From: a virus
DNA: 64,000 nucleotides
Strand: one strand, 5' to 3'
Virus record (IMG/VR): IMGVR_UViG_3300023179_000011
Location: 1-64,000 of that record
Positions within the stretch are counted from its first letter, which is position 1. The number at the start of each line of letters is the position of its first letter. Under the pieces are notes generated by a model. It saw nothing but the letters and a program-made list of their open reading frames with translations. It searched no databases and was not told where the DNA came from. A program made the position numbers and the translations under genes. Of this stretch, positions 38,432 to 62,328 are shown one piece after another.

Positions 38432-38502
38432 ATGCCCGACTAGGATTCGAACCTAGACAAAGAGAATCAAAATCTCTTGTGCTACCGTTACACCATCGGG
38501 CA
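38432..38502 (-). tRNA. tRNA-Gln (anticodon UUG)
   Basis: A complete cloverleaf: 7-bp acceptor TGCCCGA / TCGGGCA, D arm GTG...CAC with TAACGGTAG loop, anticodon stem AGAGA / TCTCT with loop TTTTGAT giving anticodon TTG, and T arm CTAGG / CCTAG with the TTCGAAT loop. 71 bases, no variable extra arm, and the 3' CCA is not encoded (discriminator T). Reads CAA (and by wobble CAG) codons. No other tRNA is visible in the window. Confidence 0.95.
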
Positions 38503-60034: not shown

Positions 60035-60571
60035 TTAGCCCTTTGCAGGAGCCGCGACGCGACGCGGACGTGACGACGTGACAGCCGGCTTACCAACACG
60101 CGTGTAAATACCGCGGTTGTCAGCCGACAGGCAGCGACCCTCAGCCCAGTTCCGCAGCCGCTCGATCTGCTCAGCCGACGTCACCGAAATCGGTACGACG
60201 TTCTGGGCAGCTTCGACGAGCGGGATATCAAGCAGCGCAGCGAGCCTGCAGCACGACTTGATCTCGGCGCCGGTCCAGTTGGCGTCGTCCGGCTTTTCCT
60301 GCGACGCATCGACACCGAAGTGCTTGAGGTAAATATCCCAGATCGCTGCGCGCTGGTCGGCGCCGGGCAGATCCACGAAGAAGATACCGTCGAAGCGCTC
60401 GGCGCGGGCAAACGGCGCCGGCAGCTGACTGGCGTCGTTACAGGTACCGATAAAAAACACATCCGACGTATGATCGTTGAGCCATGTCAGCAGCGTGCCG
60501 AACAGCCGGGCGGAGACACCCGAATCGGTCTGCCCGGAGCTTCCAACGCCAGCAAGACCCTTCTCGATTTC
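60035..60571 (-). CDS. Ycf46-like AAA+ ATPase, 3' exon
   Basis: Encodes residues 317-494 of the spliced protein. It begins Glu-Ile-Glu-Lys (EIEKGLAGVGSSGQTDSGVSA), completing Walker B, then 'LTWLNDHTSDVFFIGTCNDASQLP' (sensor 1 Asn), 'FARAERFDGIFFVDLPGADQRAAIWDIYL' (Arg finger region) and 'NWTGAEIKSCCRLAALL' (sensor 2-type). The Gly-rich 'EIEK..AG..SSG.TD' run is characteristic of Ycf46-type ATPases. The C-terminal tail is basic. Frame is kept only if the intron 60572-61380 is removed. Confidence 0.82.
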   Translation of the reverse strand, partial: EIEKGLAGVGSSGQTDSGVSARLFGTLLTWLNDHTSDVFFIGTCNDASQLPAPFARAERFDGIFFVDLPGADQRAAIWDIYLKHFGVDASQEKPDDANWTGAEIKSCCRLAALLDIPLVEAAQNVVPISVTSAEQIERLRNWAEGRCLSADNRGIYTRVGKPAVTSSRPRRVAAPAKG

Positions 60572-61380
60572 CGTTGATGTTACGAATTAGCCGTTTCCGC
60601 TAATTCTCCTGTATTTTCATACAGGACCAGACTATGTCATCTTGTAGCGTCGCACGTTGCATCTGTTGCACAAACCTTTTGATGCGTGCGGCGAAGTGGT
60701 TAGCCCGCAGGAAACGCACGCGTCGTATTGCGTGCTCCAGCGGCCGGACTTTAATAATTTTGGCGTGGCGTATTTTGCTGTGCGTGCCGCCTGTAGTTCT
60801 GTTTTGTGTTCTAACAAATGACAGCGTCTACAAACAGTTTCAAGATTGTTTAATGCGTTGTTTGGATTTTTATTTCCACGCCCTAAACGATCTTTGTGGT
60901 GTACGACAAGTTTTTTCTTTTTGCCGCAACGAAAACATTGTTGTTCGTCGCGTTCAATTACGGCTGTTCTTTTGCCGTTAAAATGTCGTTGTTCGCGGTA
61001 ATTTTTTCGATACTGCAAACAATCGGCATGGTTGTCGTAATACCATTGTTTTTTGGTTTCGGCTATGCGTTGATGATTCTTGTCGTCATTGCGATAGCGT
61101 TCCAAATAACAAATTTTGCACAGTTCTTTTGCCATATGCGGACGCTCAGTCAGGCCGCACGATTGGCAACAGGAACATTTTTTTGACCACATCTCAAAAC
61201 TCTACTACAAGGCCCCCATTTCGAACCCACTTGGGTCCTACGATCTTTCGATCTAGTCGTTGAACCTTCCAAGTATATGAGTACTTGGCTTGGCTGCAAG
61301 TTGCCCGGCTTACGCTGAGGGGTTTCTTGCAATTAAAGGGCTTTTCACTGATTTGTCGCCAAATCAGGGGACTGAATTCA
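60572..61380 (-). mobile_element. Group I intron with HNH endonuclease gene
   Basis: Minus strand, 809 bases. The upstream exon ends GTGGAT (U before the splice) and the intron ends in G. Core elements are visible: P-like 'AATTGCAAGAAACC', Q-like 'GCAACTTGCAGCCAAGCC', R-like 'GTTCAACGACTAGATCGAAAG' and S-like 'AAGATGACATAGTC'. This is the layout of T4-type (group IA2) introns. An HNH endonuclease gene sits in a peripheral loop; its stop codon falls inside the S-like element. Splicing joins VLFVD to EIEKG precisely. Confidence 0.9.
60632..61192 (-). CDS. Intron-encoded HNH homing endonuclease
   Basis: 186 aa. Two zinc motif groups: N-terminal 'CCQSCGLTERPHMAKELCKICY' and C-terminal 'CVSCGLTTSPHASKGLCNRCNV' are similar, suggesting a duplicated zinc ribbon. 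The HNH core is 'QCFRCGKKKKLVVHHKDRLGRG', 'NALNNLETVCRRCHLLEH', a ββα-metal fold with Zn-Cys ligands. It probably cuts intron-less alleles to spread the intron. Starts near the intron 5' core and ends inside the 3' core. Confidence 0.85.
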   Translation of the reverse strand: MWSKKCSCCQSCGLTERPHMAKELCKICYLERYRNDDKNHQRIAETKKQWYYDNHADCLQYRKNYREQRHFNGKRTAVIERDEQQCFRCGKKKKLVVHHKDRLGRGNKNPNNALNNLETVCRRCHLLEHKTELQAARTAKYATPKLLKSGRWSTQYDACVSCGLTTSPHASKGLCNRCNVRRYKMT

Positions 61381-62328
61381 ATCCACGAACAGGACGCACG
61401 GAGCCATCGCGTCAACCTGCTTGAGCGCGCGGCGCATGTTACCCTCGGACTCACCCACGAACTTACCCATGAGCGAACCGAAATCCAGCATTACGGTCGG
61501 ACGACCGACCTCATTGCCAAGTGCTTTGGCAAACTGCGACTTGCCGCAGCCCGGAGGCGACAGCAGGAGAACGCCCTTGGGGCGCTTGTCTACGTTGGTT
61601 TCTCCCTGCCGCCGCATAGCGCGCAGGCAGAAACTCTTCAAGTTTTCTAGGCCGCCAAGATTCTCGAAATTGGCGTCGCCACGATAGAGCGTCATCGTAC
61701 CGCTCTTTTCAAGCGTCTGCGCCTTGATACCCCAGATCGTATCGGGCGACAGCTTGTTGTTGCGTACCAGCGACAGCGCGAACGCATTCTCGGCTTCCTG
61801 CCGAGTCAGGCCGCGGGAGGCGTCAACCACCGCCGCAACTTCATGCTCGGTCGGCTTGGCGAACGGGGAGCCGTCAGGAAACAGCTCGTTGCAGACGGTC
61901 TTGAGTTGTTCCAGATCTGGCAGCTCGTGATGAACTACCGTAAACAGCTTCTCGACCTCGGGCTGCAGCTGCAGCACCGGCGCGACGATAATGATATGTT
62001 TACCTTCGCCCTTACCCTGCACGACGCGGTTTGCAAGTGCCTGCAGCACTTCCGGGTTGCCGAGAAACCGGTGAAAGTTCTTTAGCACAATAAGCATGGG
62101 CTGCTTGGGTTGCGGCTGATCAAGAAACCGCAACGCCTGCAGCGGACCGGGAGCCTGTGCGTTCCCCGAATAAAGCTGGCGGTCGATGTCCCAGACATCG
62201 AATCCCCATTCCTTCTCTTCCGTTACACGACGAATCGACGCAATCGCGTCGTCGCACTCCTGCGATTCAACCCAGATGCCGGAGAAGCCGGCGCATACCA
62301 GCTCCTTGATTTCTTTTTCGAGCGACAC
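61381..62328 (-). CDS. Ycf46-like AAA+ ATPase, 5' exon
   Basis: Residues 1-316 of the spliced protein. N-terminal domain about 1-210 ('GFSGIWVESQECDDAIASI', 'ANRVVQGKGEGKHIIIVAPVLQLQPEVEKL'); AAA domain with Walker A PPGCGKS (258-264), 'FGSLMGKFVGESEGNMRRAL', and Walker B 'CVLFVD' which ends at the exon border. Ycf46 proteins are AAA ATPases of cyanobacteria, plastids and some bacteria, of poorly known role (linked to stress and inorganic carbon use in Synechocystis). GTG start with AAAGG upstream. Neighbours DUF2997 and DUF1257 precede it. The unspliced frame stops right after VLFVD. Confidence 0.85.

Follow-up and report, generated by a model that had tools for sequence, protein, structure and literature searches.

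A group I intron that splits the Walker B Asp-Glu codon pair in a phage AAA+ ATPase gene, and signs of its movement between phages

In a large uncultured phage, an AAA+ ATPase gene is interrupted within its Walker B codons by what is almost certainly a mobile self-splicing group I intron, with splicing and DNA cleavage predicted from sequence. We observed the structure and site of the element, empty alleles in other phages, patchy presence, silent marks in the flanking exons, a co-conversion-like tract, and selection on both encoded proteins. The kind of element is ordinary and well known; the new part is its apparently unreported site and a clear natural record of mobility. The window that we analyzed (64,000 nucleotides) comes from the 199,845-bp IMG/VR virus record IMGVR_UViG_3300023179_000011, which also holds DNA polymerase, DnaB-like helicase, primase, RecA, and SbcCD-like genes. 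A search of the full record found no second group I intron. The window has a single tRNA gene, a tRNA-Gln with anticodon TTG (positions 38432 to 38502, minus strand). All sequence details given in a preliminary description of the locus hold, and every point in it that could be checked was right.

The interrupted ATPase gene

Exon 1 (61381 to 62328, minus strand) encodes residues 1 to 316, including Walker A (GCGKS) and Walker B up to VLFVD, directly after which the frame reaches an in-frame TGA (61380 to 61378) that is the first intron codon. The 809-nt gap (61380 to 60572, minus strand) sits between the Walker B residues Asp316 and Glu317, and exon 2 (60035 to 60571, minus strand, stop included) resumes from the catalytic Glu317 with EIEKG. 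Joining the flanks yields an intact ATPase of 494 amino acids, and the coordinates and the joined protein agree with the halt after VLFVD and the resumption 809 bases on that had been described. The insertion point between Asp and Glu, likewise proposed earlier, is proved to the base by intronless alleles.

The two exons divide the known profiles between them. Pfam PF00004 matches exon 1 over profile positions 1 to 64 of 131 (E = 6e-14) and exon 2 over positions 72 to 130, and in phrog_8638 (568 positions) exon 1 covers 152 to 371 and exon 2 continues directly with 372 to 539. Among solved structures, the joined protein is nearest to Cdc48/p97 (phmmer, Cdc48 chains, E = 6e-44); in the alignment, the Walker B Asp-Glu of these chains falls on D316-E317, and the protein has both the Walker A and the hhhhDE Walker B motifs by which AAA+ ATPases are recognized. 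As it scores only 49.7 bits against the full CDC48 subfamily model TIGR01243 (cut-off, 802.65), its sequence marks it as a relative of Cdc48 rather than a Cdc48, best filed under phrog_8638. The first half of the ATPase scores 34.9 bits against the model of the anti-phage ATPase IteA, under the cut-off of 510. A search of the genome collection with an exact back-translated pattern for CVLFVDEIEK found no cellular homologue, which is weak evidence given the strictness of the pattern.

An unspliced product would end right after Asp316, without the catalytic Glu, sensor 1, and the lid, so the ATPase should be unable to hydrolyze ATP unless its RNA is spliced. Despite its position behind a stop codon, exon 2 has a dN/dS of 0.05 between two intron-bearing alleles, a constraint that would be hard to explain without splicing.

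Borders, fold, and endonuclease gene of the intron

The preliminary description had proposed a group I core, with the Rfam covariance model Intron_gpI (RF00028) set beforehand as the refutation test. The full model (1 to 253) matches 61390 to 60608 on the minus strand with 68.6 bits (E = 2.8e-15), above its gathering score of 50 bits, and four other copies of the intron score 67 to 73 bits. With the exact borders taken from intronless alleles, the intron spans 60572 to 61380 (minus strand); the base before it is U (61381) and its last base is G (60572), as had been noted. An intein is ruled out by the in-frame stop at the start of the insert and by its ribozyme core. For a group II intron, a gathering-level Rfam scan of the window returned only RF00028 and one tRNA. 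Assembly error is ruled out by the presence of the same insert, at the identical base, in six other contigs.

We drew P1, P2, P3 to P8, P7.1, P7.2, P9, P9.1, and P10 by hand (all coordinates that follow are on the minus strand). The internal guide sequence GUCC (61369 to 61372) pairs in P1 with exon GGAU (61384 to 61381), placing guide G 61372 opposite the exon U at position −1 in a U-G wobble at the splice site, and UUC in the P1 loop (61374 to 61376) is proposed to form P10 with GAA of exon 2 (60571 to 60569). P1 is short (4 bp) and P10 comprises 3 bp; the guide and the UUC/GAA pairing are invariant in five copies, and P1 is recovered by minimum free energy (MFE) folding. The P2 hairpin, with a GCGA/GCAA tetraloop (61348 to 61367), appears both in the drawn and in the MFE fold. 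The core, from the 5′ to the 3′ strand of P3 (61212 to 61341), consists of P3 (61341 to 61336 with 61217 to 61212), P4 (61331 to 61326 with 61300 to 61295), P5 (61321 to 61319 with 61306 to 61304), P6 (61293 to 61265), the P7 5′ strand GACUA (61258 to 61254), P7.1 (61253 to 61242; GAUC-GAAA-GAUC), and P7.2 (61238 to 61223; GGACCC-AAGU-GGGUUC). P8 (61204 to 61211 with 60648 to 60641) is likewise found by hand and by MFE. GACUA pairs invariantly with the P7 3′ strand UAGUC (60630 to 60634), after which come the P9 (60625 to 60608) and P9.1 (60606 to 60584) hairpins. By the P7.1 and P7.2 hairpins between P7 and P3, the intron is of the subgroup IA type (IA1, IA2, or IA3).

Across the five distinct natural copies, 99.5% of cells pair in the drawn fold, and sliding the partners by 1 to 3 bases lowers pairing to 30 to 45%. 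Double compensatory changes occur at three pairs, in P5 (C-G/U-A) and P7.2 (A-U/G-C) within the core and in P9 (U-A to C-G in the copy from contig L042). For P5 we moved Rfam's own register by one base, because only in the shifted register do the C-to-U and G-to-A changes found in nature form a pair. P3, P4, and P7 are invariant among the copies, so their support comes from conservation and the Rfam model. The MFE lies at z = −4.8 relative to dinucleotide shuffles, none of 200 being as good, and the unconstrained fold recovers every helix except the pseudoknotted P7 and P10.

The P8 loop holds an open reading frame of 186 amino acids (60632 to 61192, minus strand) for a predicted HNH homing endonuclease, with a modest family match to PF01844 (26 bits; cut-off, 21.4; E = 1e-5) and a match to phrog_119 HNH (E = 2e-11). 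It is under purifying selection (dN/dS, 0.12 to 0.31). The 3′ strands of P8 and P7 are encoded by its final codons, and its TAG stop (60634 to 60632) supplies the opening three bases of the 3′ strand of P7, which confirms for the window that the stop lies within the S-like element. In two of the four other copies (L041 and L043), the stop is a TGA and, owing to a 5-bp insertion, comes a few bases earlier, so its place inside P7 is not a fixed feature. Near-copies of a zinc-finger-like motif, WSxxxxxCxSCGLTxxPHxxKxLCxxCxxxRY, stand at both ends of the protein and flank the HNH core (local score of the terminal repeat, 96; shuffle maximum, 51). Two such putative DNA-binding ends would suit a long homing site. 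The HNH core is weakly similar to that of IscB. No relatives of the protein were found at E = 1e-5 in annotated phage records.

Distribution among phages and marks in the exons

Used as a query against viral contigs, the joined protein found 64 loci, mostly uninterrupted. Five contigs (L039, L041, L042, L043, and L052) carry the intron at the identical base, and L077 is a cut copy; as L043 and L052 are 99.97% identical, there are, with the window, five distinct intron copies. The uninterrupted motif, or empty site, is present in 35 intronless IMG/VR contigs. On a host tree of the phage ATPases, built leaving out the columns around the insertion site, the intron occupies four separate positions, with at least four gains or losses, all forced by well-supported branches; the window and L039 share one acquisition. 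Between L041 and L043, the introns are 91.4% identical and the exons 78 to 81%, and dS is 0.285 for the endonuclease gene versus 0.648 for the host gene. Seven intronless relatives of about 200 kb and the L022 contig yielded no other group I intron, and pattern scans of viral contigs for the intron 5′ end, core, and P9.1 found no home beyond this ATPase site. Together, these observations point to an intron that moves between phages at one site.

Silent bases in the exons accompany the intron. Of the 1,572 columns in the alignment, just three (−4, −1, and +3) distinguish all intron-bearing alleles from the close intronless ones, turning GTC GAC|GAG into GTG GAT|GAA with the protein unchanged; at least three diagnostic columns arose in 0.5% of 2,000 null draws with comparable row sets. 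Every intron-bearing allele reads GTG GAT|GAA, and 34 of the 35 intronless alleles read GTY GAC|GAG, with GTG in none of them; the one exception, L022/L083, is intronless with all three marks. A sign test of intron against codon marks gave P = 0.25, significance being out of reach with four independent contrasts, one of them uninformative. The contrast holds within this phage clade only, as the same codons vary freely in far relatives (30 to 47% identity). In intronless alleles, synonymous sites around the target are slightly more conserved than usual. The three marks are the silent positions within the stretch contacted by P1 (GGAU/GUCC) and P10 (GAA/UUC), so a role for the guide is well motivated; close linkage alone would also carry the marks.

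Two alleles suggest past events at the site. In L039, the exon 2 stretch between 0 and +135 has its closest matches in L012, L031, and L042 and groups with the L042/L012/L015 clade, with two serine codons switched between AGC and TCN; the L039 regions from −300 to −60 and from +135 to +500 are nearest to the window and group with its clade. This looks like a natural co-conversion tract, such as repair from an intron-bearing donor would leave. The intronless L022 is a sister of the intron-bearing L043, and the 66 nt upstream of the site are identical; precise intron loss would be the simplest reading, although L022 may instead descend from an original compatible host. The preliminary description had called the site one that homing favors, and presence and absence at four tree positions together with the co-conversion marks bear this out.

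These observations also bear on other accounts of the locus. The in-frame TGA as first intron codon is what a decayed, non-splicing intron might display, with the ATPase either dead or a split gene making two fragments; we give this almost no credence, given the constraint on exon 2 behind that stop, core helices fully kept in five copies, and the fact that in a split gene the catalytic Asp and Glu would fall on different chains. Descent of all intron-bearing alleles from one ancestor, with losses elsewhere and little horizontal movement, is very unlikely as well. Loss seems possible at least once (L022), and the window and L039 do share an acquisition, but a single-clade host tree is rejected (p-AU = 9.5e-9), the L041 and L043 introns are more alike than their exons, and each loss would also have to restore the GTY GAC|GAG of nearly all intronless alleles.

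A less improbable alternative, though still an unlikely one, is that the flanking silent codons differ through later selection for guide pairing and not through homing co-conversion. The marks that all copies share coincide exactly with the bases contacted by P1 and P10, and in the window the block has been cut back to these three bases, with the silent sites that follow on either side (−7, +6, and +9) matching the intronless sister group, as would fit selection that keeps guide pairing. Three other copies, however, share marks beyond the contacts (TTT at −7, ATT at +6, and GAA at +9), and L039 has its tract of about 135 nt from another clade. Co-conversion and selection for guide pairing may both be at work.

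For the mobile self-splicing intron that we favor, the mechanism would run as follows. The intron RNA would fold with its guide GUCC paired to exon GGAU, and excision with a guanosine cofactor would join GAU to GAA, restoring VLFVD-EIEKG. The HNH protein would cut or nick intronless alleles of coinfecting phages at the codon-conserved site, and repair off the intron-bearing copy would install the intron along with the flanking silent codons GTG GAT|GAA that its guide needs. As a tentative extension, which we think possible rather than probable, the intron would impose synonymous codons of its own on the catalytic motif of its host gene, and homing would work only through co-conversion of the guide-matched bases at −4, −1, and +3; L022 would then be a fossil of precise removal, perhaps from spliced RNA, and the endonuclease may be a weapon against intronless coinfecting relatives, like gp210 of phage PhiPA3.

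Significance and known systems

The AAA+ Walker B Asp/Glu site adds a seemingly unreported host gene and target site to those of phage group I introns. Phages sharing this ATPase gene carry alleles with the intron, alleles without it, and possibly alleles that have lost it, and across this natural series the silent bases touched by the ribozyme guide track intron presence. How homing and co-conversion relate to what splicing requires of the exons thus becomes directly testable. Automatic annotation would fail to recognize the two ATPase gene fragments as parts of a single enzyme.

Group I introns and inteins favor conserved sites of conserved proteins (PMC2814812), and the usual phage hosts of group I introns are polymerase, terminase, and reductase genes (PMC11878797, PMC3984707). 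A full-text literature search, with most subscription journals outside its coverage, returned no report of a group I intron at this ATPase site, and the site is likely, though not proved, to be novel. The introns of Bastillevirinae and Jug huge phages are similar in being phage group I introns, frequently of IA type and in many cases with an HNH gene (PMC11878797, PMC12363816), and those of Bastillevirinae average 802 nt (PMC11878797) against 809 nt here. They differ in their hosts, mainly DNA polymerase, terminase, ribonucleotide reductase, and thymidylate synthase genes, and the portions of these reports available contain no AAA+ Walker B insertion site (PMC11878797, PMC12363816).

Among phage records, the best DNA match to the intron (83.8% over 66 nt, at its 3′ end) is to the terminase introns of Vibrio phages 1.187.O and 1.193.O, which also interrupt a P-loop ATPase gene but a different one, near Walker A, the first intron being too short for an endonuclease gene. 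In these phages (L071 and L070, respectively; 2727 to 4300 in L070), the terminase large subunit gene is in four pieces separated by three group I introns (75 to 90 bits), the first near Walker A (GGAK ... AGSGKS), and the deposited annotation gives the fragments as separate genes.

The plant mitochondrial cox1 group I intron resembles the ATPase intron in its patchy presence, in introns more alike than their hosts, in a co-conversion tract marked by silent third positions, and in a case of intron loss retaining the tract (PMC3192709). It is mitochondrial, and its tract is recognized on the 3′ side only (PMC3192709), whereas the ATPase intron has marks on both sides, at guide-contact bases.

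The closest mechanistic precedent is gp210 of PhiPA3, an HNH endonuclease whose own gene lies in a group I intron that interrupts an RNA polymerase gene (PMC11620839). There, too, a jumbo phage has an HNH gene inside a group I intron, the insertion lies right after conserved Asp residues of an essential enzyme, and a related phage has an intronless homologue (PMC11620839). The host gene of that intron, however, encodes an RNA polymerase subunit, and the nicking and competition that we infer for the HNH protein of the ATPase intron have been demonstrated experimentally for gp210 (PMC11620839).
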